This document shows positions 20,611 through 39,906 of a stretch of 64,000 nt of DNA, in pieces. How positions within the stretch are numbered: the first letter of the stretch is position 1; every line of letters starts with the position of its first letter. The stretch spans positions 1 through 64,000 of the forward strand of contig JAGXGS010000031.1 in the NCBI GenBank assembly GCA_024636585.1. The letters are read 5' to 3'. A program made the position numbers and the translations under genes. This DNA comes from Thiogranum sp. GTDB lineage: Bacteria; Pseudomonadota; Gammaproteobacteria; DSM-19610. The notes beneath the pieces are model-generated. The model saw only the letters and a program-made list of their open reading frames with translations. It was not told where the DNA came from and searched no databases.

Positions 20611-21432
20611 TTATTCTGATAAGGCGGCTATTTCTTCCAAACTCCAGACATGATCCGAGACTTTTGCCTCCATTGCTGGAGTAACTCGTAACGTTTTATG
20701 GATTCGCCCAAAATTGTAGTACATGTAATGCAGTGATATGGCGTGAATGTGGTTCTCGATCTTCTTGTTGAATCCGTTGGTTAGCCTGGTGAACCGGCGC
20801 ATGCTCATCCGCATGGTCAGGTTCTGGCGTTCGATACAAGACGTCGAAACATCCGCCTTGTTGGGATTTCCAGTGATCTTACGTTTAGTCGCGCAGACGA
20901 ACTCAGACGGGCTGTAGCGGGTTTCTGTCTGTCCCTGGCCATACATCTTCACCAGCATGGCATAGTCGACATCCGCTCCGAAAGCGCCATTCACCGCCTC
21001 AAGATAGGCTTTATGACCGTCTGTGGTCAACTGAACGCGGTGCTTGAACCGGCCCGCGAGGTTCAGCATAAACTCATTGGCTGAGTCCGCATCCCGGCTA
21101 CCGACCAGCCAGCACGGCACAACCTTGGAATCCGCACACATACCGACCCAAGTCCAGACGTCGCCATAGCCGAACTGGCCTTTCTTATCTTCAGGGACAT
21201 TCTTTTGCTTGGAATAGCAGAAAGACCAGATTTCGTCGCACTGAACGCGCTTGCACTCAAGGTCACGCAGGTGTTCATCCTGGTAGTCCAAACAAGCAGA
21301 ACCTACGTCATTCAAGAGCTTATCGACAGTATTCCGGCTGACATCGGCTATCCGGGCCGTAGCACGAAGGCTATTCCCCTCAACCAGCAGGTGAAGGATT
21401 TGCGCTCTTGTTTTTATGTCTAGCCGGTTCAT
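20611..21432 (-). CDS. IS1-family transposase (DDE)
   Basis: 273 residues from the ATG at 21432 (MNRLDIKTRAQ), the usual start in this group; in-frame ATGs lie further upstream at 21471. An N-terminal HTH (LRATARIADVSRNTVDKLL) is followed by the catalytic core: CDEIWSFCYSK (first Asp), LTTDGHKAYLEAV (second Asp) and CIERQNLTMRMSMRRFTR (Glu). The single-frame gene, without the -1 frameshift of classical IS1, fits the ISMhu11-like group. It lies next to the left inverted repeat. Confidence 0.9.
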   Translation of the reverse strand: MNRLDIKTRAQILHLLVEGNSLRATARIADVSRNTVDKLLNDVGSACLDYQDEHLRDLECKRVQCDEIWSFCYSKQKNVPEDKKGQFGYGDVWTWVGMCADSKVVPCWLVGSRDADSANEFMLNLAGRFKHRVQLTTDGHKAYLEAVNGAFGADVDYAMLVKMYGQGQTETRYSPSEFVCATKRKITGNPNKADVSTSCIERQNLTMRMSMRRFTRLTNGFNKKIENHIHAISLHYMYYNFGRIHKTLRVTPAMEAKVSDHVWSLEEIAALSE

Positions 21433-21438
21433 AATGAA

Positions 21439-21475
21439 CATTATGCTTGAGTGCGTTAAATTGTCAAGCATTATG
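21439..21475. promoter_or_regulatory. Inverted repeat before the transposase gene
   Basis: CATTATGCTTGA (21439-21450) and TCAAGCATTATG (21464-21475) pair at 11 of 12 positions around a 13-bp spacer. They overlap the transposase 5' end and face the HigB operon. TCAAGCATAAT recurs near the right end of the IS (23732-23742). It could bind the transposase or the HigA antitoxin. Confidence 0.4.
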
Positions 21476-21544: not shown

Positions 21545-21841
21545 ATGGAATATGAATTTACTGACCCGGAGTTGGAGGGCTTGGCTACTGACCCGTCATT
21601 TCGCTCGAGATGGCCGGATGCAGTGGCCAGGGCGTTTAGAAAGCGTGTACAGCAAATTGGAGCAGCGGTAGATGAGCGAGATTTACGAGCACTCAAATCG
21701 CTGCATTTTAAGAGATTAAAAGGCGATCGATCAGATGAGCATTCGATACGGTTGAATAATCAATGGCGACTTATTGTGGTGGTGGTTAGTAAGGGTCAAG
21801 ACAAGGTATTGCAAATCGTTAAAGTCGAAGATTATCACTGA
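21545..21841 (+). CDS. higB: HigB-type mRNA interferase toxin
   Basis: 98 residues of the RelE superfamily: FRKRVQQIGAAVDERDLRAL, HFKRLKGDRSDEHSIRLNNQWRLIV. The 'LKGDR...EHSIRLNNQWRLIF' segment is the HigB signature. HigB cleaves mRNA in the ribosomal A site. The antitoxin follows 4 bp downstream, the toxin-first order typical of higBA. It lies inside the IS as cargo, where it could stabilise the transposon. Confidence 0.88.
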   Translation: MEYEFTDPELEGLATDPSFRSRWPDAVARAFRKRVQQIGAAVDERDLRALKSLHFKRLKGDRSDEHSIRLNNQWRLIVVVVSKGQDKVLQIVKVEDYH

Positions 21842-21845
21842 GATC

Positions 21846-22985
21846 ATGACAATGAAAAACACATATGCAGAAATATTTCCGCCTGGAGAATTCCTTCGAG
21901 AGGAACTTGAGGCCCGTAACTGGACGCAACAGGATTTCGCTCGTATTTTGGGCAAGTCCTCTCGTCTAGTGAATGAAATTCTAAATGCAAAGCGTGCTAT
22001 CACGCCGGAAACAGCTACCGTCTTATCCAGCGCTCTAGGTACATCAGCGCAGTTTTGGATGAACTTAGAAAGCATGTGGCAGCTATTTCAGCTTGACCAG
22101 CTTGATGATGCTGTACCGCGTAGAGCCAAGCTTTACGAAACATTCCCAGTAAGCGATATTCTCAAGCGTGGATGGGTAGAAGATAGCGAATCTATAGAGG
22201 TTCTGGAAACGAGATTCTGTGAATTCTTTGGTGTCAGTTCCATAACCGAAACTCCGAGATTGACCGCCTGTTTCCGCAGAACAGATGAGGATGAAGGTGT
22301 AAATGGATTGTTGCTTTCCTGGTTATATCGGGTGAGGAATATAGCTAAAGATATAGCAGCCCCGAAATATTCTCGCAAAAGTTTGCTTCAAGCTGTTCAG
22401 AAATTAGAACAGTTAAGAAATGAACCTGAACAGGTTAGACATGTTCCGCGCATTTTAACTGAGAGTGGTGTTAGATTTGTGATCGTAGAGAAGTTTTTAG
22501 GCACTAAGATCGATGGGGTATGTACTTGGTTGGACAAATCTTCTCCTGTAATAGGTATGTCTATTAGATTCGATAGAATTGATAACTTTTGGTTTGTACT
22601 TAGGCACGAGATTGAGCATGTTTTGCAAAAGCATGGCCAAGACGAGCAGGCAATAATTGATGTTGGTTTAGAGGGGGAAAATGCTGGTACTGGCGAGTCC
22701 GTGCCAGAAGAAGAGCGCATCGCTAATGCGGCAGGCGCAGATTTCTGTACTCCAACAACGGAATTTAAATCTTTTTATGCCAGAAAGTATCCGTATTTTT
22801 ATGAGCGCGATATAACTGGTTTTGCTGCGAAATTGGGCATCCATCCTGGGCTTGTGGTTGGTCAGCTGCATAACAAAACGGAGAAATACAATTTCCTTCG
22901 TAAATATTTAGTAAATGTCAGAAAACATATTCTTCCTTATGCGATTGTCGATGGATGGGGAGAAGAGGCGTTAATCGAAATATAG
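21846..22985 (+). CDS. higA: HigA antitoxin fused to an ImmA/IrrE-type metallopeptidase
   Basis: 379 residues. An N-terminal HigA/XRE domain (IFPPGEFLREELEARNWTQQ, then ILGKSSRLVNEILNAKRAIT) is followed by a long region with the ImmA/IrrE zinc site RHEIEHVLQKHG at about 254-265. Such long HigA proteins with an IrrE-like domain form a known subclass. The peptidase could control antitoxin turnover or act on another repressor. The start is ATG 21846 or 21852; neither has a strong ribosome-binding site. Confidence 0.85.
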   Translation: MTMKNTYAEIFPPGEFLREELEARNWTQQDFARILGKSSRLVNEILNAKRAITPETATVLSSALGTSAQFWMNLESMWQLFQLDQLDDAVPRRAKLYETFPVSDILKRGWVEDSESIEVLETRFCEFFGVSSITETPRLTACFRRTDEDEGVNGLLLSWLYRVRNIAKDIAAPKYSRKSLLQAVQKLEQLRNEPEQVRHVPRILTESGVRFVIVEKFLGTKIDGVCTWLDKSSPVIGMSIRFDRIDNFWFVLRHEIEHVLQKHGQDEQAIIDVGLEGENAGTGESVPEEERIANAAGADFCTPTTEFKSFYARKYPYFYERDITGFAAKLGIHPGLVVGQLHNKTEKYNFLRKYLVNVRKHILPYAIVDGWGEEALIEI

Positions 22986-23956: not shown

Positions 23957-25429
23957 ATGAGTGAAAGAACCATATATTTATTCCCCGACACCAATTTTTT
24001 CGTCCAATGTTACGTTCCCGACCAGCTCGACTGGTCAGCTTGGTTGCACTTCGAAGAAGTGCGTTTGATCGTCACGCGCCCAGTCCAACGGGAGATCGAT
24101 AGACAGAAAAATCAGGGAAACTTCCGGGTGAGTCGTCGTGCGCGAAAGACAGCCAGCATGTTCCGTCATCTTATTTTGAGCGATTCGGACGTCAAGGTCA
24201 TTAGGGAGGCTGCACCGTGCGTCAAGCTGCAGATCTGCCCCAAGTATGTTCCCAGTAAATCAGTTGGCGATCGCCTGAATTATCAGGAGTGTGATGACCA
24301 GTTGGTGGGAACAGTCAAATTCTTCATTGAAGAGCATCCAGGTTTGGACGGCCGTTTGCTGACGCACGATACCGGGCCTATGGCCTCTGCGCAGTATGTC
24401 GGTGTCCCGTTCGTAGCTGTCCCTGATGAATGGTTAATGCCACCGGAAACGACCCGAACAGACAAACGACTGGCAGAACTGCGGGCGGAAGTCGATCGGC
24501 TGAAAAAGACGGAACCCGAGTTCCACATTAAATGCATAAATGCAAAGGGGCGCGAAATCGCCGTACTAAACGAGGATTCTGTTTGCTATCGACCACTCAA
24601 CAGCGATGAGGTCAGCGAACTCATGGGCCTGGTAAGGAGCCGGTGTCCAATGGAAACAAACTTCGGCGAGCGTGAATCGCAGAAACGTCCATCCCGAGAG
24701 TGGGGGCTTGTTGCGCCCGGAATGAAGGATGTGTTCGTGCCAGCCAGCGATGAAAGTATCGCAGCTTATGGCGATGAAGACTATCCAGGGTGGCTTGAGC
24801 GATGTGAGCAGTTTCTTTGTAACTATCATCAGACATTACAGCGTGACGTTGTTCTCCCGCGATTTTGCTTTATGGTGACCAACGAGGGGACGAGGCCCGG
24901 CAAAGACGCGCTATTAACGATTGAGGCTAAGGGAGGGATCCACATTACGCCTGCGTCGCGTGTCAACGCCACCGCAGAAAAGAAACGACGTAGTACAAAT
25001 CTTCCCGCGCCACCAGAACCGCCGCAGGGTAGGTGGCATAATCCCTATTCCGATGCGGTTAACGCAAGCGCCTCTTTTGCCTTGGGGCTGTCTCACCTGA
25101 CCCCCGATCTTGGTTCTCGGTTCGACGCGGCTGTTCGTCGCGAGAGGGATCCGAATGAGCTTTATTGGGCAGAAGGTCGACCTGTCGTGAGTCAATCTTT
25201 GTTTGAGCTTAAATGCGAACAGTGGCGCCATGGCGTTGCGGCACACCATGTTGAAGGCGCTATTAATGTCACCTGCGATGAAGACGTGGCTAGTGGCGTT
25301 CTGGAATGCTGCGTTCACGCCGAGAACATGTCGGATGCGGCTGTAATCCGCGTTCCTGTGCGCATTGCTATCACACATGTTCCAGTTTTAGAAAGCGCAC
25401 GCAAGCTGGTGGCAGCGCTCACAGGATAG
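23957..25429 (+). CDS. Large protein with N-terminal PIN-like nuclease domain
   Basis: 490 residues. The PIN fold is supported by YLFPDTNFFVQCY (first Asp), VQREIDRQK (Glu) and LLTHDTGPMASAQYVGVPFV (last Asp) within about 160 residues. This is followed by a coiled coil (RLAELRAEVDRLKKTEP) and a roughly 300-residue C-terminal part of unknown fold. PIN domains cleave RNA. Stand-alone PIN proteins of this size occur in defence islands. A single gene with no obvious antitoxin partner argues against a simple VapBC pair. Confidence 0.8.
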   Translation: MSERTIYLFPDTNFFVQCYVPDQLDWSAWLHFEEVRLIVTRPVQREIDRQKNQGNFRVSRRARKTASMFRHLILSDSDVKVIREAAPCVKLQICPKYVPSKSVGDRLNYQECDDQLVGTVKFFIEEHPGLDGRLLTHDTGPMASAQYVGVPFVAVPDEWLMPPETTRTDKRLAELRAEVDRLKKTEPEFHIKCINAKGREIAVLNEDSVCYRPLNSDEVSELMGLVRSRCPMETNFGERESQKRPSREWGLVAPGMKDVFVPASDESIAAYGDEDYPGWLERCEQFLCNYHQTLQRDVVLPRFCFMVTNEGTRPGKDALLTIEAKGGIHITPASRVNATAEKKRRSTNLPAPPEPPQGRWHNPYSDAVNASASFALGLSHLTPDLGSRFDAAVRRERDPNELYWAEGRPVVSQSLFELKCEQWRHGVAAHHVEGAINVTCDEDVASGVLECCVHAENMSDAAVIRVPVRIAITHVPVLESARKLVAALTG

Positions 25430-25637: not shown

Positions 25638-25823
25638 TTAACATTGCGATGGCCACTCGTCGCCAGCAAAGGCCTTGGCCTCGTCCTCTTCCATCGGTGA
25701 GCCGTTGGCCCGGACTTTGGAGCTGTTGAAGTTCGGGACCCACTTACCGCCTACGAGTTTTCCGCCGAAGAAATAATCATCCTCGGCCCGATAGAGTACG
25801 TTATCGAGTTCTGCGTATTTCAC
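25638..25823 (-). CDS. Small acidic protein, tandem paralogue 1
   Basis: 61 residues from a GTG at 25823 with GGAGGGA just upstream; longer ATG-started frames lack such a site. VKYAELDNVLYRAEDDYFFG opens the protein and MEEDEAKAFAGDEWP closes it. The same opening and closing blocks occur in the neighbouring paralogue. The acidic ends resemble small anti-restriction or DNA-mimic proteins only superficially. Function unknown. Confidence 0.6.
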   Translation of the reverse strand: MKYAELDNVLYRAEDDYFFGGKLVGGKWVPNFNSSKVRANGSPMEEDEAKAFAGDEWPSQC

Positions 25824-25935
25824 ATTCCCTCCAAGCACCTCGCCGAAGTTGGGTCGTTGGTGATCAGGATCGGCGTATGCTGCTCCATCGGCGGTATGGC
25901 AGCGGTGCCAGGCTGGTTCTACTGTCACCATCACT

Positions 25936-26133
25936 TCAGGTTGGCCGCGATTCTGCGGGCCACTCGTCGCCCGCGAGTTCATTGGCTTCGTCTTCTTCAA
26001 GGACCATCCCGTCCCGGGCAACCTTGGACATATCTACGCCCTTGCCGGTCCACTCGCTATTCATGAGGCGTTCATCGAAGTGCTTGTCGTCTTTGGCGCG
26101 GTAGAGTACGTCATTAAGTTCTGCGTATTTCAC
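25936..26133 (-). CDS. Small acidic protein, tandem paralogue 2
   Basis: 65 residues from a GTG at 26133 preceded by GGAGG at the same spacing as in the first copy. VKYAELNDVLYRAKDD and VLEEDEANELAGDEWP match the first copy at about 70% in these blocks; the middles differ. A 112-bp gap separates the two. Matching starts and ribosome-binding sites show that both copies are kept as genes. Confidence 0.62.
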   Translation of the reverse strand: MKYAELNDVLYRAKDDKHFDERLMNSEWTGKGVDMSKVARDGMVLEEDEANELAGDEWPAESRPT

Positions 26134-26250
26134 ATTACCTCCAGCAGAATACATGGGCGGCAAGATAGCGTCGCCCGGCGGATTAGGCAGAGCATACAGA
26201 TAAAACCCCGCCGAAGCCGGAGCGTCGACGGAGTTGTGGTGGGTGGCGGG

Positions 26251-29468: not shown

Positions 29469-29564
29469 ATGCTCATCCTCCCCCGCCGCATAGCCGAAAC
29501 GGTCATCATTGAACCGCCAGCCGGCGAACGTATCGAAGTCGTATCGCAGCGCCGGCTGAAGTAA
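29469..29564 (+). CDS. CsrA-like minigene (truncated)
   Basis: 31 codons. MLILPRRIAETVIIEPPAGE aligns with the CsrA start (MLILTRRxGETLxI). The second beta strand is ERIEVV, then the frame ends. The RNA-contact strand is kept but the C-terminal half of CsrA is missing. It is most like the 45825-45989 copy (both have 'IIE.PAG'). It may be a decayed gene or an RNA-binding fragment. Confidence 0.45.
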   Translation: MLILPRRIAETVIIEPPAGERIEVVSQRRLK

Positions 29565-29627: not shown

Positions 29628-30221
29628 TCAGCCGACTGGGTAAATCCGATGATGTCTCTCCCACCAGACCATGTGGAAGTGCGCTTGGACGATGTATCCC
29701 CATGCTCTTTTTGTTGCGCCTAGGCGAAACCGGAAAACGGTGTCGTATTCTTCTAACTGAAGTTCTAGCCACCGCCGCTGGGCTTCGTCCACAAGGTCAC
29801 TGATCTCGTGGTCATGGTGCATCTTGTGCCCTGATTCAGAGGATTGTCGGTCGATTTCGCCCCAAGTCAGCTGCGCAAAATGCCCGAGTTGAGGGGAGAT
29901 GTAACTGTCCCATTCTACCCGTTGCCATGCGCGAGGCTCACCCCATGTCCACTCACCCTGAGTGTCGGCTTTCGCGATACACCAAGTGACACGAGCGCCA
30001 AAGCGGCTACCGTCTTTGCTAGCCTTCGGTGACTTTTCTTGCTGTGCGGCAGCCTGGGCTAAATGGGGTGCGATCTTTGGGGAAAAAGATTGGGCCGGTT
30101 GAGCGCGTAGCTTGGGCTCGGGTGCATCATTGACCCTAGCAACGAAATCAGCCTTCTTGGCTTCAAATCTTTGGAGTTTAAGTGCTTTCCTGCGCTGGCG
30201 TTCTTCGCTCTTCTTGCTCAC
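29628..30221 (-). CDS. Putative toxin of a Panacea toxin-antitoxin pair
   Basis: 197 residues from a GTG, 9 bp downstream of the Panacea gene. The N-terminus is strongly basic (SKKSEERQRRKALKLQRFEA). A low-complexity linker and a C-terminal domain follow (VTWCIAKADTQGEWTWGEP, RRWLELQLEEYDTVFRFRL, YIVQAHFHMVWWERHHRIY). No known toxin domain is recognised. Because Panacea antitoxins neutralise many unrelated toxins and are encoded next to them, this partner is the likely toxin. Confidence 0.6.
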   Translation of the reverse strand: MSKKSEERQRRKALKLQRFEAKKADFVARVNDAPEPKLRAQPAQSFSPKIAPHLAQAAAQQEKSPKASKDGSRFGARVTWCIAKADTQGEWTWGEPRAWQRVEWDSYISPQLGHFAQLTWGEIDRQSSESGHKMHHDHEISDLVDEAQRRWLELQLEEYDTVFRFRLGATKRAWGYIVQAHFHMVWWERHHRIYPVG

Positions 30222-30230
30222 ATCGAACAG

Positions 30231-30665
30231 TTAGAGCGACGAGTAGTATTCGTGAATGCCTGCTTTTGAAATCACTTCGTTGGAGGGATCGCCAGGCGCC
30301 AAACCATGTCTGGCATTAACCCACGGATCTTCCTGATGCGTGAGGTTACTGAGCCACTGAGCGCTCTTGCTGCCGTAGAAGATCAACACCCGGTCAATGG
30401 TGTCGCGCTGATTTGGCAACAGCCTCTCCGAGCTGCTGTCCTCGAAAAGGTTGAGATCAACCTTAAACCTGCCCCGGTGGCGATGGTAAAGGTCAGGCAA
30501 CACCGGGCCATTAGCCCAAGCCTGAAAGTCGTCCTCAAACAGAGTTTCCTCGTCCCAGACCATGTACCAAGCCTGCGCATAGTACATAAGCTTCTGAAGC
30601 TTCATTGCGGTCATTTCGCCGCTCTTCTCCAGAATGTACCTTGCCACTTCGAAAATAGATGCCAT
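30231..30665 (-). CDS. Panacea-domain antitoxin (SocA/DUF4065 type)
   Basis: 144 residues from the ATG at 30665. MASIFEVARYILEKSGEMTA and MKLQKLMYYAQAWYMVWDEE, then FQAWANGPVLPDLYHRHRGR, are the conserved Panacea blocks (as in SocA/GepA). A longer TTG start at 30707 is possible but adds an unlike leader. The family acts as a versatile antitoxin; SocA also serves as a protease adaptor. It is transcribed together with the 29628 gene. Confidence 0.85.
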   Translation of the reverse strand: MASIFEVARYILEKSGEMTAMKLQKLMYYAQAWYMVWDEETLFEDDFQAWANGPVLPDLYHRHRGRFKVDLNLFEDSSSERLLPNQRDTIDRVLIFYGSKSAQWLSNLTHQEDPWVNARHGLAPGDPSNEVISKAGIHEYYSSL

Positions 30666-31729: not shown

Positions 31730-34700
31730 TCACCAGATAGCGCATTCAGATCCCCTCGCATACACCCCCACGTTCCGCTCCGGGTAGCTCTCATACACAT
31801 GCTCGAACACCGCCGAGCACTTCTGGTTGTAGATCTCTGGGGTGTAGGCACGTGGTAGCCCAATGTCGAGAGCATCTTCAATCGTCAATTTCAACTGCGA
31901 ACGGGCAGCGGCTTTTTGTCGCCAATTCAACACCAGTAACTCCTTGAGACGAGCCAGTAAGTCACGGGCGACTTTTTTCACCTCGGCGCGTTCCTCAGTG
32001 TTCAACTCCGGGGCTGGGCGGGTGAGGATGTCGAAGATGACCAGTTCCTCCTCGCTCATGTTCTCGCGCACATGGCGTTCCTGCTCGTCGTTCAGGCTGT
32101 TGGAGAGCTTTACCAGCTCCTCGAACAGATCCTCGATGCTGCGGCTGCCGGCGTTGTAGCTTTCGATCAGTGCCTCGAACTTCTCGGCAAAGTCGGCGCG
32201 GGTGCGGTTCAACTGGATCATTTTTCCCAATTGCGCACGGATCGCGGCCTTGAGGACTTCGAGGTCGGTGTTTTTGTGTTTGGATTCCTTGAAGCGTTGT
32301 GCCAGTGCCTCGAAGTTGATCGTGGAAAGGTCGAGCGCCGGCGGCCCTGACTGGCGAATTTCGTGGCCGGTGATAGATTCGTCGAGCAGGTCATTGATCT
32401 GCCCTATTACCTGCGAGATGTCCGGCGGGTTTGGGTTTAGCTTGATGCGGATGGATTCAGCCAGAGTCGTTATACAGGCGACGCGGCTCGAGAATTCCAC
32501 CGCAGTCGGATCGGGTTTCACGGCACGATAGAGCATACTCACCAGACGCTCATGGGCAAAGAAATCACGGCGCAACGGATCTGGGGATATTAGTGCGTTC
32601 ATGCCATCTTCAATGCGTGCGAGGCGTTCCATGCTGCCTGCTGCAAGTGATTCTATTTCCGTAAGCATTACACTGTGCGAGGCGCAGAACGTTGTGGCAT
32701 TAATCAACGATTTACGCAGATCCTCTACCAGTTGCTGCTTGTCCTTGACTGGAGTTTTCCCATCTTTGCCGGCACCGTAGATAGCCAATGCCTTTTCGAG
32801 CGAAGCGAATACGTTGGCATAATCGACGATGACGCCGCTGTGCTTGCCAGGGAACACTCGGTTGGCACGTGCAATCGTCTGCATCAGCGAGTGATTCCGC
32901 ATCGGTTTGTCCAGATACACCGTCGAGCAGCTTGGTGCATCGAAGCCAGTCAGCCACATGGCGCAAACGAACACCAAACGCAGCGGGTCATCGGTATCCT
33001 TGAACTTTTCGTCCAGCCCAGGCTGCGATTCGTTCATGCGCTTGCGGTGTGGCTCGATGTCGAGTCCCTGCTTTTGCATCTGCTGTATTTCATTCTGACC
33101 CGGCGAGACGATCACTGCCATGTCAGTGCTGGTCAGCACCTCCAGCCGTTGCTTCAGCTCGGCTATGCGCAGGTCGCGCCGCGCTTGCTCGGGTGTCATA
33201 TCGCCGCCGGGGTGATAATGAAGCGCACCCAGTTCCTTCTGCGCGGACTCGGTCTCTGTTGACCAATATTTCCTAACCTTGTCGTGCATCCGCAGCGCGG
33301 TAGCCTTGTCTATGGAGACCACCATTGCCTTGCCCACAAACCCTCGGCCCAGGAAGTGCCGCACGATGTCCTGTGCAACGGTTTCCAACCGGTCGTCTCG
33401 GGTGATCAAGTGGTATTGCCGCCCTAGTACCTTCTCCAGCTTGGTCTCTTGATCCGCGTCGAGTTCGGCGTCCTCGATCAGGTGGTAGATGTCCTCGTTC
33501 AAGTCCGGGTTGGTGAGCTGCAATTCCGGCGTGCGGTTCTCATAGAACAGCGGCACGGTGGCGCCGTCTTCGATGGACTGCTGGAAGTCGTAGATCGACA
33601 CGTAGTCGCCGAAGACCTCCTTGGTGCGCTCCTCGCCGGCTATCAGCGGTGTGCCGGTAAAGGCCAAGAACATCGCCTTGGGCAGGGCGGAACGCATATT
33701 CAGCGCCAGCGTGTCGTACTGGCTGCGGTGTGCCTCGTCGGTCAGCACGATTACGTCGGAGCGGTCGCAGAGCAACTCCGGCGTTTGGAACTTGTGCACC
33801 AGTGTAAAAACGTAGCGGTGATTACCACGCAACAACTCGCGCAAGTGGGCGCCGCTGGCGGCATGACATTCATCGCCCTCGGCGTCGCTGACCGCGCCGG
33901 TAGTCTTGAAGGTCTTGGCGATCTGCTCGTCGAGCTCCACGCGGTCGGTGACGACTACGAAGGTCCAGTTGCCGGCCAGCTTGCGCAGCACTTTCTGCGC
34001 GAAGAACACCATCGAAAAGCTCTTGCCGCTACCCTGCGTCTGCCAGAACACGCCGCCGCGACCGTGGCCCTGCGTACGCGCTTCTAGCATTGAGCCGATG
34101 GCGTTATTCACCCCGAGGAACTGATGGTTCTGGCCGAGAATCTTGACCAGCCCGCCTTTGTGCTCGGAGAACAACGTGAAGTTCTCCACCAGATCGAGCA
34201 GTCGGTCGGGGTCACAAGTGCCGCGCAGCATAACTTCCAATGACACACGTCGTGGTTCGTCCTCGCGGGCTATACGCTTCCACTCAAAGAAGCGATCCCA
34301 GTCAGCGGTGAGCGACCCAACACGACTATCAGTTCCGTTGGAGGCAATCAGCAGCGCGTTGCTCCAGAACAGCGAAGGGATCTGCTGTTTGTAGTGGGTG
34401 AGGTTTTCGTCGAAGGCGGCCCGCGCAGGCACGCCGGGTTTCTTAAGTTCGATCACCACCCAGGGCAGACCATTGACGAAGCCGACCAGATCGGGCCGGC
34501 AGGTGTAGAGATTGCCGACAACGCTGAACTGGCTGACCAGCAGGAAGTCATTGTTGTTCGGATGTTCCCAATCCACCACGCGCAGGCGTTCGGTCTTCTG
34601 GCCGCCGTGCTCCTTGTCAGGCACTGATACAGCAATACCCTCCTTGAGCAGCCGATACACCTCGCGGTTTGCGGCCTCTAGACTCGTCGCCGAGCGGTCG

Positions 34701-34936
34701 CGGATCAGTTCATCGACGGCATTGCTGATCGCCTCCGGCGGCAGCGTAGGATTGAATTTTACAAGCGCGGCGTGCAGGCGCTCTATTAACACCACCTCAC
34801 CCTTGGTTTCGCGCCCCAGCGTGCCACTCGCACCGAAGGTCTCTTCCAGCGCCGACACCGTCTGCCAGCCAAGGCCGACAAACAGTCCGATGGCGGGCTG
34901 TTCTACGAGTTGGTCTTCGGAGTAGGCGTGAGTCAT
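31730..34936 (-). CDS. hsdR: Type I restriction endonuclease, R subunit
   Basis: 1,068 residues from the ATG at 34936 with AAGG upstream. It has an N-terminal nuclease domain (RVVDWEHPNNNDFLLVSQFS, VIELKKPGV: the D...ExK site) and an SF2 translocase with Walker A WQTQGSGKSFSMVF, DEAH box VIVLTDEAHRSQYD, AFTGTPLI, and motif VI-like TIARANRVFPG. The C-terminal domain is helical. It translocates and cuts DNA at unmodified HsdS targets. It is the last gene of the five-gene operon. Confidence 0.96.
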   Translation of the reverse strand: MTHAYSEDQLVEQPAIGLFVGLGWQTVSALEETFGASGTLGRETKGEVVLIERLHAALVKFNPTLPPEAISNAVDELIRDRSATSLEAANREVYRLLKEGIAVSVPDKEHGGQKTERLRVVDWEHPNNNDFLLVSQFSVVGNLYTCRPDLVGFVNGLPWVVIELKKPGVPARAAFDENLTHYKQQIPSLFWSNALLIASNGTDSRVGSLTADWDRFFEWKRIAREDEPRRVSLEVMLRGTCDPDRLLDLVENFTLFSEHKGGLVKILGQNHQFLGVNNAIGSMLEARTQGHGRGGVFWQTQGSGKSFSMVFFAQKVLRKLAGNWTFVVVTDRVELDEQIAKTFKTTGAVSDAEGDECHAASGAHLRELLRGNHRYVFTLVHKFQTPELLCDRSDVIVLTDEAHRSQYDTLALNMRSALPKAMFLAFTGTPLIAGEERTKEVFGDYVSIYDFQQSIEDGATVPLFYENRTPELQLTNPDLNEDIYHLIEDAELDADQETKLEKVLGRQYHLITRDDRLETVAQDIVRHFLGRGFVGKAMVVSIDKATALRMHDKVRKYWSTETESAQKELGALHYHPGGDMTPEQARRDLRIAELKQRLEVLTSTDMAVIVSPGQNEIQQMQKQGLDIEPHRKRMNESQPGLDEKFKDTDDPLRLVFVCAMWLTGFDAPSCSTVYLDKPMRNHSLMQTIARANRVFPGKHSGVIVDYANVFASLEKALAIYGAGKDGKTPVKDKQQLVEDLRKSLINATTFCASHSVMLTEIESLAAGSMERLARIEDGMNALISPDPLRRDFFAHERLVSMLYRAVKPDPTAVEFSSRVACITTLAESIRIKLNPNPPDISQVIGQINDLLDESITGHEIRQSGPPALDLSTINFEALAQRFKESKHKNTDLEVLKAAIRAQLGKMIQLNRTRADFAEKFEALIESYNAGSRSIEDLFEELVKLSNSLNDEQERHVRENMSEEELVIFDILTRPAPELNTEERAEVKKVARDLLARLKELLVLNWRQKAAARSQLKLTIEDALDIGLPRAYTPEIYNQKCSAVFEHVYESYPERNVGVYARGSECAIW

Positions 34937-34941
34937 CAACC

Positions 34942-36060
34942 TTACGTCCCTATTTCGAAGAGGATAGCGCTGATTGGCCCACCCTCAGGCGGCTCTCCAG
35001 TTACTGATTTATCGCCGTCATCCGTTGAGTTCCCGCTACCTGAAATTGAAGTTTCGTTATCAAGGCTACCGGGCTGCCAATTACTAGTTTCAGCTACTCC
35101 ACCTTGGGAAAAATACTGCATGGCCATCGAGTTGGTCATTTCATAACCAAGGAAAAACATTGGGCGGCCAGATGAATTCTTTGCAGTTAAATAAAGGACA
35201 TCTTCCTGCCCGCGACTGGAGCGGCCCATCGACGCGCTGTGAGTGGCCGTTAATGGTTTTGCAAATGTCGCTTCGAGGAGATAGTTGATTAAGGTTGACC
35301 AATCATCACGTGGAGATGCTGCATCAATGGTTTTCCAGCCATTTCCTTTGGGAGGAAGATCGAATTCCCATCCAAATTTTCCTGGCAACATCCCTGTTAG
35401 CAGATACGCAAGGCAGTCTTCACCAGTAACCTTGTAAGTTCCCGCTGACCCACTAAGGCCATCGGTAGTTAACCAATGATGTACTCCAGAATGACGACTT
35501 GGCAAATGTGTTGAACTCGAACTGGTGAGTCCATAAACGAGCGCCGAATCTGGAGAGAGATGACTCAAGTCAATTTTAGTGGGAGCTAGCGCCGCGTCCA
35601 CATCGAATTTCGGGCGAGTTGATAATAAATCAAACTGATTTTTCTCCGACCTTGAAGAAAGAGTGACACTGCCGGCCGTAGAATTTTTTGCTTGAACCAG
35701 AACGGCAACACCCTTCGGGGTGCTTGATGTTCGGTCAATTACCACTAACAGCACATCAGCCAGTTCACACCGCCTCCTGATCGCACCATTCACCCATTTC
35801 ACGTAGGGTGTTTGATGGGTAAACACCGTAGCCATGCTTAGCCCTAGTCCAGGAGCAGCTTTAGTAAATACATTTTTCCATCTATGTGCGACGTTAACCA
35901 TGGCCCTGCATAAATGGGCGACGAATATGGTTTCCCACTGGGTCGGACTCAGTTTTTTTGCAGTGATTTCACTGAAAGCTTTTGCGTGCGATTGTGTGAT
36001 TGCATTACAGGCGAGCGCATGTAGCTGGGACATATCGCTACCGCTGAGAGTGCTGATCAT
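34942..36060 (-). CDS. Unrecognised protein inside the type I R-M operon, PD-(D/E)XK-like
   Basis: 372 residues. Around residues 98-128, RRRCELADVLLVVIDRTSS is followed by GVAVLVQAKNS. An acidic residue, a hydrophobic strand and then Q-x-K fit a degenerate restriction-endonuclease-like active site (E/D...D...QxK). The remainder includes DALAYLLTG-like helical stretches and an Ser/Gly-rich tail (ETSISGSGNSTDDGDK). It overlaps the DUF4268 gene by 4 bp and ends 5 bp before hsdR, so it is co-expressed. I recognise no family. Confidence 0.75.
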   Translation of the reverse strand: MISTLSGSDMSQLHALACNAITQSHAKAFSEITAKKLSPTQWETIFVAHLCRAMVNVAHRWKNVFTKAAPGLGLSMATVFTHQTPYVKWVNGAIRRRCELADVLLVVIDRTSSTPKGVAVLVQAKNSTAGSVTLSSRSEKNQFDLLSTRPKFDVDAALAPTKIDLSHLSPDSALVYGLTSSSSTHLPSRHSGVHHWLTTDGLSGSAGTYKVTGEDCLAYLLTGMLPGKFGWEFDLPPKGNGWKTIDAASPRDDWSTLINYLLEATFAKPLTATHSASMGRSSRGQEDVLYLTAKNSSGRPMFFLGYEMTNSMAMQYFSQGGVAETSNWQPGSLDNETSISGSGNSTDDGDKSVTGEPPEGGPISAILFEIGT

Positions 36061-37106
36061 GGCTCAGCGCCTAAGATGGTAGCGACCTCGACATCCATTT
36101 GACGCGAGATCGGGCATTGCAAGTGCAGTAGGTCGTATACTCCATGCAGGCTTTTAGTCATGGTAGAGTTTTGACGCCGTAGCACTTGATCCTTCTTTAC
36201 CAATTTCTGCGTCAGCCAGTTCAGATACTCATCCCATCGGCTTTCGTCCTCGATGGATGCTTGCGGATACCAGGCGGCGATTCGACACGCCATGGCATCG
36301 GGGAGTTCTTGCCAGTCCAGCTCAAAGCCCAGCTGGTCTTCGATGGTCTGCTTCTGCGCGACGAGGTTGGCGAAATGCTGCTTGCCCGCCGCGCCCGGAA
36401 TCCACAGCTCCACGCTCAGTCGCTCGTCGCGGGTGTTGGCTGTGATGTTTAGCCCGGAACCAGAGCGCCCGATCCTATTGTTCAGCCAGTGCTGGGGGCG
36501 GGGTTTCTGCGGGCGGATGTGCGGGGCGTTGGCGGCCAGCCGTTCGATAAGCGCGATCCAGAATTTCTGCTGCATTTGTTTGGTGGGCGAGGTGGCAGAC
36601 GCGGCGCGTGCCTGTTCGCGGCCGGACTTCACCCAGTTGTTGGGTTTCACCACCACCTCGAATTTCGGCGCGAGCGGCGAATCGCCGACGCGCCACAGCT
36701 CCACCTCGACAGCGAAGAAGTCCAGCTCGTCGGTTGTGTTCTCGTTGAGGAAATCCAGCGCGGCGGCGTGCTCGGGCCGGAACGACTCCGCCACCCAGAT
36801 CACCTTCTTCGCGCCCACGCCGGCGGCATAGGCGATGACCTGGCCCAGGTGCGCGTGGTTGGTTTTATCCAGCTGGTTCTCGATGATGACCTGGTTGTCG
36901 CCGTCCGTGCAGAGAATGTCCAGCTTGAAGTCGCCCACCCAGTGCTCGGTGGCTACGTGTACCAATTCACTCAGGCCCAGCGCGTCGGCCAGCGCGTTCA
37001 AGTTGTCGGTTTCTGCCAGCCAGGGCTTGAAATCGTTGGCTTCGTGTCTCCATGCCTCGCGCAGCGATACGGACACCAGTTTACCGAGGTTCTTTTTCAT
37101 GCTCAT
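36057..37106 (-). CDS. DUF4268 protein with PD-(D/E)XK nuclease-like domain
   Basis: 349 residues. The N-terminal nuclease-like core is WVGDFKLDILCTDGDNQVII, then ENQLDKTNHAHLGQVIAYAA. The D...ExQ pattern is standard for DUF4268. The C-terminal DUF4268 part has LSVELWIPGAAGKQHFANLV, then QKQTIEDQLGFELDWQELPD. It lies between hsdS and the unknown gene with 4-bp overlaps on both sides. DUF4268 genes accompany defence loci; a second nuclease or an anti-phage sensor role is inferred. Confidence 0.82.
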   Translation of the reverse strand: MSMKKNLGKLVSVSLREAWRHEANDFKPWLAETDNLNALADALGLSELVHVATEHWVGDFKLDILCTDGDNQVIIENQLDKTNHAHLGQVIAYAAGVGAKKVIWVAESFRPEHAAALDFLNENTTDELDFFAVEVELWRVGDSPLAPKFEVVVKPNNWVKSGREQARAASATSPTKQMQQKFWIALIERLAANAPHIRPQKPRPQHWLNNRIGRSGSGLNITANTRDERLSVELWIPGAAGKQHFANLVAQKQTIEDQLGFELDWQELPDAMACRIAAWYPQASIEDESRWDEYLNWLTQKLVKKDQVLRRQNSTMTKSLHGVYDLLHLQCPISRQMDVEVATILGAEP

Positions 37107-38290
37107 GCGAGGGTTCCCACGTCGATCTGGCCGGAGAGCAGGCGCGGCAGCAGCAGGTCGCGGGTGCGGCTGAGGTTTTGGACTGCACGTGCGAGCCTCA
37201 TAATCTGGCGCGATATTGGAGCAGCGAAATCGCCGAACTGTTGGGATATGTCCTGTGGTGGAACAACCAACGGTTTAGCTGAAAATTCTGGCCAATGTCC
37301 CTTGTAATCGTTGAACGCAACAAGTCCGTTCGTCGCCCAATGTAGCCAATAGATATTTCTTGCCATTGAAGGGTGGGGAACGAACGGCAGCACATTTTGG
37401 ATTGCCGAGAATGGAAAGTGAATGAGCCGCTGGTAGCAGGTGTGGTTTGCGAAAACTATTACCGGAGAATTCTCAGACGCCTCAACGCCAGGTTCATCGT
37501 CGTGGTAGCCGATGATGCCTGACTTGCCTTGGTCGAAAACTGGAACAGAGCCCGTTGAGCTTACCGTCTTTTGGTTGTATTTCTTGCCGACCGGAATACG
37601 CTTCACGATTTCCTCAACAGTCTTCACCTCCCATCCCTGCGGAATCTCGCCGAGGGGGGAGGCGACGCGGGGGTGGTTCTCAAAGCCGGGGAAACGGAAG
37701 TGGACGAACCACTCGCGGTAGAGGGCGCGGGCCATCGACTCCAGAATCTTGATGCGCCGCTGGCTGTTCTCGATGAGTTCGTCGTAGGCCGACAGGATGC
37801 CCGCGATGCGGTCTTGGACGGGTCTGGACGGGAGGCCAACCACAAGTTCTTTTGCAGCACCGACGTTGAAATGTTGCTGTGCGACTCCAACCAAATTGCC
37901 TGCGACCGATGCCATCCCCCAAGCTGAATTAAAGATGGCAGCGAGATAATGTGGATTGAGTTCTCCTGATGGGGTAATAACGACCAAGTCAGCACAATTC
38001 AATTCCGAGAATGTGTTTGGTATTACACAGGCTGTTCCGGGGTAGCCGGTTCGGACAACTGCCACGTCACCAGGGTGTAGTGCAGACTTGCGGAGTTTTA
38101 CGTGAAATTCACGCGGCACATATTTGATGTCATCGACACTGAGTCGAAACGGCGTGATGTTCTGCGAGCGAAGAAATGGAACGCCTTCGGGGGTGTATTT
38201 GTCTGCCATCGGGCCTACATGACCAACCGTAATTCGGTCACAAACGTCTTTCAGTTTAACCTTGCGCATATTGGTCGTGCCCATCATCAC
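37103..38290 (-). CDS. hsdS: Type I restriction system specificity subunit
   Basis: 395 residues. Two target-recognition domains are separated by helical conserved regions: [20 protein letters not shown] ... [12 protein letters not shown] (TRD1), [20 protein letters not shown] (central coiled coil), [20 protein letters not shown] (TRD2 start), and [19 protein letters not shown] at the end. It determines the DNA target of the methylase and restriction complex. It overlaps hsdM and the DUF4268 gene by 4 bp each. Confidence 0.95.
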
Positions 38291-39906
38291 GCCCCCAAAA
38301 TCCCCGCCACATTTGCGGCGATGGTCTGCTCCAGTTCCCGCGCCTGGGCGTTCAGCGATTCCAGTTCCTCGTTCAGTTCTTCGAACTGTTCCTTGAAGTC
38401 CTCGTCGCTCACGTCTTCGCCCGGCGCGACGCCGACATAGCGGCCGGGGTTGAGCGACCAGCCCTGGGCTTCGATCTCCTTAAGCGTCGCAGCTTTGCAC
38501 AGGCCGGGCACGTCGGCATAGGACGGCTTCTTGCCGAAGACTTCCTTGATCTTCGCCTCGGCCTCATCCCCGCCGAGGGTGTAGTCGAGCGCCTCGCCGC
38601 GATACAGGCGCACCAGGTTGGCGATGAAGCCGATCTGCGCGGGTGGCCAGTCGCGGTGGGCGCGATCCACCTGCCGGTAGATGTGGCGGGCGTCGATGAA
38701 GAGCACTGTGTCGGCGCGCTTCGATTTGGCCTTGCCCTTGTCGAGGAACCACAGCGTGCAGGGCAGCGTGACGGTGTAGAACATGTTGGGGCCGACGGCG
38801 ACCATCACATCGACAGCGTTCGCTTCGATAAGTTGTTGCCGCAACTCCTGCTCCGAGGCGCGGGCGTCGGAGGCCGAGTTGGCCATGACGAAGCCGGCGC
38901 GGCCTTTGGCACTCAGCGACGAGTAGAAGAGCTGAATCCACAGATAATTGGCGTTGTCGGTGCGCGGCAGGCCGAAGGGAAAGCGTCGGCCGGCGCCGAC
39001 CATGTCTTTCAGGCGTTCCTTGTCCACCGCGTTGACGTTGAACGGCGGATTGGCGAGGACGAAGTCGAACTGGCCGGTGGCGGTGTGCGGGTCGTCGTAG
39101 TAGCTGTTGACGTTGCCGCCGTGGCGGATGTCGCCTTCCAGCCCGTGCACGGCGAGGTTGAGGCGGCACAGGCGGCCGGTTTCGTCGGTCTTCTCGACGC
39201 CGCAGATGGCGAGCTCGGCGGCGGGGTTCTTCTGGTGCTCCGCAACGAAACGCGCCGATTGCACGAACATGCCGCCGGAGCCGCAGGCGGGGTCGAGGAT
39301 GCGGCCGTGGAACGGTTCGATGACTTCGGTGAGCAGGCGCACGATGCTGCTCGGCGTGTAGAACTCCCCGCCCTTCTGGCCTTCGGTGCGGGCGAACTCG
39401 CCGAGGAAGTATTCGTAGATGCGGCCGAAGGCGTCGTAATCGACGCTGGCGGGAATCTCCGAGACCTTCTTCAGCAGTTCCTTGAGCAGGGTGCTGGTGA
39501 ACAGGTTGTAGGTCTTGGGCAGCACGCCGGCGAGTTGCGGGTTGTGCTTCTCGATGTCGCGCATCGCCGCGTTGACCTTGGCGCCGATGTTGGCCGCCTC
39601 CGGCAGTGAGAGCAGGTAATCGAAGCGCGCCTCGGGGCTGAGATAGAGGATGCCCTCGGCGTGATAGGCGGCGGGCTCATCGACCCGGCTGCCGCGCCGA
39701 GAGGAGGCGCCGGCCTTTTCGAGCTTGTCGCGCTGGGCGGTGAAGCGAAGCTCGGCAAAGCGCAGGAAGATCAGGCCGAGGATGGGGCCGGAGTATTCCT
39801 GTGCCTTAAGGCCGGAGTTGGCGCGGAACTGATCGGCGGCATCCCAGAGGCGCTTTTCGAGCGTGGCGGCGGCGGTGTCTTTTTCGGAAGGGGCGATCCA
39901 GTGCAT
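38287..39906 (-). CDS. hsdM: Type I restriction system N6-adenine methyltransferase
   Basis: 539 residues. The N-terminal HsdM_N region has [20 protein letters not shown] and the methylase domain has [38 protein letters not shown] (SAM-binding) and [14 protein letters not shown] (NPPF catalytic motif IV). The C-terminal coiled coil interacts with HsdS. As the first gene of the operon it follows a 468-bp region with the likely promoter. The GC-rich sequence differs from the AT-rich 43-46 kb genes. Confidence 0.97.

Follow-up and report, generated by a model that had tools for sequence, protein, structure and literature searches.

The window analysed here is a stretch of 64,000 nucleotides from a draft genome of Thiogranum sp., a gammaproteobacterium (GenBank assembly GCA_024636585.1, contig JAGXGS010000031.1), and on its minus strand lie two adjacent genes, here called panA and panT. 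The first gene of the pair, panA, runs from an ATG at position 30665 down to 30231 and encodes a predicted antitoxin of 144 amino acids; the second, panT, lies downstream, running from a GTG at 30221 down to 29628, and encodes a predicted toxin of 197 amino acids. Nine bases separate the stop of panA from the start of panT. The positions agree with an initial annotation of this DNA, which had been made from the letters alone. When both genes are compared with those of three relatives (L055, L020 and L056), to which PanA and PanT are 48–65% identical, differences fall at the third codon position about twice as often as at the first two, and because of this the two open reading frames are judged from their sequence to be protein-coding, not chance. 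Scans for promoters, terminators and repeats around the pair found none, including any promoter-like or repeat sequence upstream, and the predicted RNA fold across the junction of the two genes is unremarkable (z −1.77). A short open reading frame on the plus strand (about 29469–29564), convergent with panT and perhaps a remnant, contains LILPRRIAETVIIEPPAGERIEVVSQRRLK, which we take to resemble the start of CsrA.

Residues 23–115 of PanA match the Pfam family SocA_Panacea (PF13274) with an E-value of 4.8e-19 and 69.8 bits, against a cut-off of 25.7, which bears out the Panacea identity first given to this gene. The Pfam scan found no further domain in PanA, and it is therefore regarded as a stand-alone Panacea protein. 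A second Panacea gene was not found in this draft genome of 2.6 Mb. The Panacea domain is shared with the type VI system SocAB; PanA, however, scores 47.8 bits against the NCBIfam SocA model, below the equivalog cut-off of 190, and so falls outside the SocA equivalog.

Upstream of panA, and best regarded as context and not as part of the module, is a type I restriction operon on the same strand (31730–39906; Pfam and PADLOC). It comprises hsdM (38287–39906), hsdS (37103–38290) and hsdR (31730–34939), and between hsdS and hsdR lie a PDC-S11/DUF4268 gene (36057–37106, 349 amino acids) and a gene of 372 amino acids without a Pfam or PADLOC match (34942–36060). On the other side, about 7 kb from panA–panT, the window contains a second toxin–antitoxin pair, in which a gene for a HigB toxin of 98 amino acids (21545–21841, plus strand) overlaps a gene named HigA-like by eye (21774–22985, plus strand); an insertion-sequence transposase, also recognised by eye (20611–21471, minus strand), adjoins this HigBA pair. 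Two overlapping minus-strand open reading frames (25638–26021 and 25936–26163) encode similar proteins, a pattern that tandem duplication of a small gene would leave, and a protein of 490 amino acids (23957–25429, plus strand) has a sub-threshold match to PIN_4 (E 5e-4, 20.8 bits against 21.9).

The partner of PanA was initially described as an unrecognised protein, and at the level of sequence this description stands: no Pfam, PDB-sequence or profile–profile match rises above threshold. Pfam scans of PanT and 15 family members found no family above cut-off, which leaves PanT outside the HigB (PF05015), ParE (PF05016) and YoeB (PF06769) families. The matches of these proteins to PAPA-1, dGTP_diPhyd_N, Sororin and other Pfam families are sub-threshold and composition-like; an NCBIfam match of PanT to XopJ (E 0.11) was taken as chance, and its one match among PDB sequences, at E 0.04, is unrelated. 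By eye, PanT has no long hydrophobic stretch, and a membrane toxin was set aside. The models that do respond are phrog_8366 (PHROG, function unknown), matched by all 15 members, and the PADLOC model NsnC, matched by the C-terminal part of 13 of the 15. Relatives of PanT also match the NCBIfam model MAG6450 (NF046006, 103 residues), the best at 1.1e-6 and 29.1 bits, all of them below the curated cut-off of 40 bits; PanT itself is unlisted at E-values up to 1.

The family falls into a main branch, with 44 distinct toxins, and a divergent branch, with 24, and a profile–profile comparison by hhalign joins the two at 99.0%. The divergent branch, searched against PDB sequences, found no match. For comparison, profiles of known toxins were built from genomes of the same class, leaving out partial, broken and weak rows (HigB, 21 of 25 loci; ParE, 23 of 25; PemK, 22 of 25; YoeB, 17 of 25). 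Against HigB, ParE, YoeB and PemK the PanT family gives probabilities of 0.5, 0.3, 0.1 and 0.3%, while in the same test HigB and YoeB find each other at 94.8% and ParE and YoeB at 85.9%. Because its values stay below 1% where HigB–YoeB and ParE–YoeB score high, PanT is placed outside the HigB, YoeB and ParE sequence families, and its predicted RelE-like character, described below, links it to them by fold only.

Every search for relatives was queried with the toxin, and the Panacea gene had no part in choosing the loci. Among 274 genomes of the same class, the family was found at the window locus and at one more. Alignment searches found it in 15 of 398 genomes of the phylum, and at six loci in a species-genome collection, in Paracoccaceae, Desulfococcaceae, another alphaproteobacterium, Actinoplanes, Thermoanaerobaculia and a gammaproteobacterium. 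A search of plasmid proteins gave one record, from Rhizobium (H1), and a search of phage proteins likewise one, from a faecal phage (H2). Viral contigs scanned with the single PanT protein gave no relative; alignments were needed to find them, and with these, searches gave 6, 18, 3, 9 and 40 loci. A Panacea open reading frame stood beside the toxin in all 15, 15, 30 and 47 loci of successive sets, the last of which includes three annotated records from branch queries and four re-fetched places from a search with MAG6450. Together with the window, these 107 loci, which span several phyla and many phages, keep the Panacea gene just upstream and on the same strand in 108 of 108 cases; some of the loci overlap or are near-copies, and the number of distinct toxins is 68.

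The initial annotation had stated that a Panacea gene is always encoded next to a toxin. This was too strong, since Kurata et al. (2022; PMC8832971) place about half of Panacea proteins in conserved two-gene loci. In 39 related genomes there are six other Panacea loci, which have other neighbours and none of which adjoins a member of the PanT family; the specificity of the linkage thus lies with the toxin. The reading that panT is a chance or non-functional neighbour of the Panacea gene could appeal to one broken relative (L028), in which both open reading frames are truncated; the 108 linked loci, this one-sided specificity and the protein-level constraint on both genes exclude it to a very high probability. 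A degraded gene was likewise rejected. In the 16 other genomes of the genus there are one Panacea gene above cut-off and one weak fragment. Because neither adjoins a toxin of the PanT family, the sequences suggest that panA–panT was gained by transfer.

The two proteins have also diverged together. Among 59 pairs with toxins less than 85% alike, distances between PanA proteins follow those between the toxins with a Mantel r of 0.73, and none of 5000 permutations reached as high a value; by branch, r is 0.46 for 43 main-branch pairs and 0.86 for 16 divergent-branch pairs. In other words, panA and panT are inherited as a unit, although co-variation of this kind is alone no proof of contact. The locus shows two of the marks of a PanAT pair, namely an antitoxin with a Panacea domain and two genes that lie on one strand, less than 100 nt apart, and are kept as a pair in at least two species. 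The toxin–antitoxin reading, for which conservation of the two genes as neighbours had been proposed as a check, is strongly supported, as a prediction from sequence, by obligate linkage and co-divergence.

The distribution and the setting also bear on what such a pair may be used for. It might be a phage-defence or exclusion system with Panacea as sensor, and not a plain addiction module: panA–panT adjoins the type I restriction operon, related pairs are carried on contigs of phages and prophages, most of the 15 members match the PADLOC model NsnC, and Ernits et al. (PMC10440598) hypothesise a sensing role for Panacea. However, prophages carry addiction modules too, and in PanT the NsnC match spans only positions 207–280 of the 284 in the model, whose name comes without a description; among the literature matches listed, the abbreviation led only to unrelated uses. 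A defence role is plausible from gene context and homology, and we put its chances a little below even. It concerns the use of the pair, not its biochemistry, and is compatible with the RelE-fold RNase account given below.

Structure prediction, which had also been proposed, changes the picture of PanT. An AlphaFold2 model from an alignment of 35 sequences has a mean pLDDT of 89.2 and a pTM of 0.67, and consists of a basic helix (residues 3–32; 30126–30215, minus strand; pLDDT 91–97), a loose linker and a RelE/HigB/YoeB-type core (residues 76–197; 29631–29996, minus strand). The basic N-terminus noticed at the outset is real: residues 1–76 have a net charge of +10, and the charge is positive in 34 of 35 aligned members. 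The core is modelled in the order strand-helix-helix-strand-helix-strand-strand-strand, and between helix 2 and strand 2 it carries a beta-alpha insertion (residues 136–153; 29763–29816, minus strand) with conserved H136, A147 and R150. Because of this order of elements, the insertion appears in the model to be an addition to the plain RelE topology. The C-terminus does read HFHMVWWERHH, as first described, and this aromatic-rich end is modelled as the last strand of the RelE-type fold, carrying W186, D/E188 and H191.

When the PanT model was compared with the PDB by Foldseek, HigB, RelE and YoeB chains ranked first, with weak E-values (best 1.4), and nothing in the viral structure library matched with an E-value of 0.001 or lower. 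In VIA-align the top row is RelE of Thermus thermophilus, with an rmsd of 2.8 over 83 residues and a Z of 7.1, in a range (below 8) where, by the program's own warning, a score can reflect a common arrangement. Of the 34 rows listed, 27 are named RelE, HigB, YoeB or ParE, and the other seven are Cami1, PfiAT, an unnamed toxin–antitoxin complex, Txp40 and three unrelated helices. Because the Z for PanT was below 8, the divergent branch was modelled from a separate alignment of 16 rows headed by L142; 12 of these belong to that branch and four to the main branch, and the two models are therefore not fully independent. This second AlphaFold model (pLDDT 83.9) matches RelE with a Z of 8.8 and an rmsd of 2.6 over 86 of 89 residues; of the 50 rows listed for it, nearly all are toxin chains of RelE-type fold, and Foldseek places YoeB and HigB at the top with an E-value of 0.1. 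Both predicted models are thus best matched by the RelE/HigB/YoeB/ParE fold, and the earlier statements that the partner matches no toxin fold and is unrecognised are not supported at the level of predicted structure.

These comparisons also bear on the reading of PanT as a MazF/PemK-type RNase. It has a precedent, as Kurata et al. (2022; PMC8832971) proposed this type, by HHpred, for two Panacea partners without a CDD hit, from P. moraviensis and B. ruminantium. On the other hand, the profile comparison found no sequence link to PemK, and no PemK chain is among the structural matches listed for either model, where RelE-type chains fill the lists; such an absence does not exclude the fold, and together with the profile result it leaves this reading very improbable.

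The conserved residues of the main branch point to a candidate active site on the RelE-type core. R172 (29706–29708, minus strand) and, 19 residues further on, H191 (29649–29651, minus strand) are invariant in all 44 main-branch toxins, W186 is also invariant, every one of these toxins has D or E at position 188, and R150, H136 and R166 are conserved in 93, 82 and 80%, respectively. In HigB the commonest distance from the Arg to the terminal His is likewise 19 residues (17 of 20 matches). An R-x17..19-H pattern near the C-terminus occurs in 42 of 44 main-branch toxins, against a shuffle mean of 14.2, and in 19 of 21 HigB and 17 of 17 YoeB proteins, where we take the Arg and the terminal His positions to be catalytic, as against 5 of 23 ParE (shuffle mean 5.4) and none of 22 PemK proteins. 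When another Arg is required six residues before the first, the pattern is found in 33 of 44 main-branch, 9 of 21 HigB, 17 of 17 YoeB, 0 of 23 ParE and 0 of 22 PemK proteins. By their spacing, R172 and H191 may be equivalent to the catalytic basic residues and C-terminal His/Tyr of RelE-type toxins.

In the 24 toxins of the divergent branch, by contrast, R172 is mostly replaced by Ala or Pro, and Phe mostly takes the place of H191, and because of these replacements the candidate active site is, as judged from the alignments, not conserved across the whole superfamily. R166 and D188 are kept by every toxin of that branch, W186 by 96% and H136 by 92%. The R-x17..19-H pattern occurs in 21 of the 24 (shuffle mean 7.2) at other positions, which is why it is not exclusive, and the two-Arg pattern occurs in 1 of 24.

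Two further readings turn on these residues. PanT could be a RelE-fold toxin that is not an RNase and instead inhibits DNA gyrase like ParE or acts on another target. RelE/ParE members are known to cleave RNA or inhibit gyrase (Ernits et al., PMC10440598), ParE is among the structural matches listed (rows 28 and 30 for PanT; 41, 47 and 49 for the divergent branch), and the divergent branch does without R172 and H191. We consider this unlikely, since the invariant R172 and H191 and the strongly conserved D/E188 and H136 of the main branch suggest catalysis, and since the Arg/His pattern in ParE is not above chance. Also rather unlikely is that these toxins have turned the RelE fold to a new reaction or target, such as cutting tRNA or a phage RNA, with Panacea sensing infection; because R172 and H191 are absent from the divergent branch, and H136, R166, W186 and D/E188 persist, such a reaction might rest on the insertion His and the strand Asp in place of RelE-type residues.

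The account that we favour, with moderate confidence, is that panA–panT is a type II module in which a divergent RNase toxin of predicted RelE fold is held by a stand-alone Panacea protein. RelE, HigB and YoeB cut mRNA on the ribosome. For the pair described here we infer toxicity, neutralisation, RNase activity, ribosome dependence and trigger alike, and the course of events would be as follows. PanA would bind and silence the neighbouring PanT, whose predicted structure combines a small antiparallel sheet and two helices with an inserted beta-alpha unit and, at the N-terminus, a basic helix. If the antitoxin were lost or sensed a trigger, probably infection by a phage or loss of the element, the toxin would be freed and would most likely cut RNA. 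As with RelE, HigB and YoeB, its target would probably be mRNA on the ribosome, and translation would stop. Catalysis would proceed via R172 and H191, with R166, D/E188 and H136 as further candidates. Because PanA has no added neutralising domain, the simplest account of neutralisation is that it would directly block the RelE-fold core or the N-terminal helix of PanT. Panacea alone neutralises toxins directly in two characterised pairs, those of B. choladocola and G. mesophilus (PMC10440598), which have a stand-alone Panacea protein as here.

The locus is probably a relative, itself uncharacterised, of systems of a known kind, the published PanAT pairs (Kurata et al. 2022, PMC8832971; Ernits et al. 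2023, PMC10440598), with which its predicted organisation agrees: a Panacea gene first, with a toxin gene only a few bases away on the same strand, conservation across species, and mobility. The validated PanAT toxins include membrane toxins, toxSAS, Fic/Doc, MazF-like RNases, a putative nucleotide cyclase, MqsR and an FtsL-like protein (PMC8832971, PMC10440598); a RelE-fold partner other than MqsR, of the PanT family, is not named in the main texts. MqsR, whose RelE fold is taken here from the title of a cited paper, is the toxin beside an MqsA–Panacea fusion in B. fungorum (see also Makarova et al. 2009; PMC2701414), and this too combines a RelE-fold toxin with a Panacea-containing antitoxin. 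There, however, a separate zinc-binding domain neutralises, whereas PanA is Panacea alone, and the Pfam scans did not match PanT to MqsR. With the ribosome-dependent interferases RelE, HigB and YoeB, PanT shares the predicted fold and the Arg/His spacing near the C-terminus; it differs in having no detectable sequence link to them, in its extra basic N-terminal helix and beta-alpha insertion, and in its antitoxin, which is Panacea in place of RelB, HigA or YefM.

The PanAT datasets hold 88 toxin clusters, 41 of them without a domain (PMC8832971, PMC10440598), and in Kurata et al. (2022) 938 of 1,268 Panacea partners have no recognised domain. A description of the PanT family was not found in the main texts of the Panacea literature, and the family may be among the unnamed toxin clusters of the PanAT datasets; within the literature searched, its RelE-fold assignment was not found in print. 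One domain-less family of Panacea partners, spread over several phyla and phages, can thus be placed, by prediction, on the RelE fold with candidate residues named, and it becomes possible to ask how a single small domain would neutralise a toxin of RelE fold in place of RelB, HigA or YefM. Should PanT prove to be an mRNA interferase of the ordinary sort, the gain would be a modest one.

The pairing may reach further still. A search of 150 genomes of the phylum with the MAG6450 model found four places, all of them already found with the toxin family. In Mycoplasma agalactiae, MAG6450 is a conserved hypothetical protein and MAG6440 a putative prophage protein ps3 (2011; PMC3179502). Because a Panacea gene of a Pseudomonas phage bears the same name, ps3, the Panacea–toxin pairing may extend to Mycoplasma as MAG6440–MAG6450.

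The divergent-branch pair (L142, 2008–2920, and relatives) is common in prophages of E. coli and Pseudomonas, and it is also present in phages of Pseudomonas aeruginosa. It occurs in 48 of 5,426 complete E. coli genomes, at 51 places of which 50 are on chromosomes, and five among the matches listed are annotated as a Panacea protein and a hypothetical protein; this prophage-derived version offers a tractable species. In another gammaproteobacterium (L214, 125–1195), a Panacea gene lies near an open reading frame of 356 amino acids on the opposite strand, which presumably resembles a DarG-type macrodomain protein.
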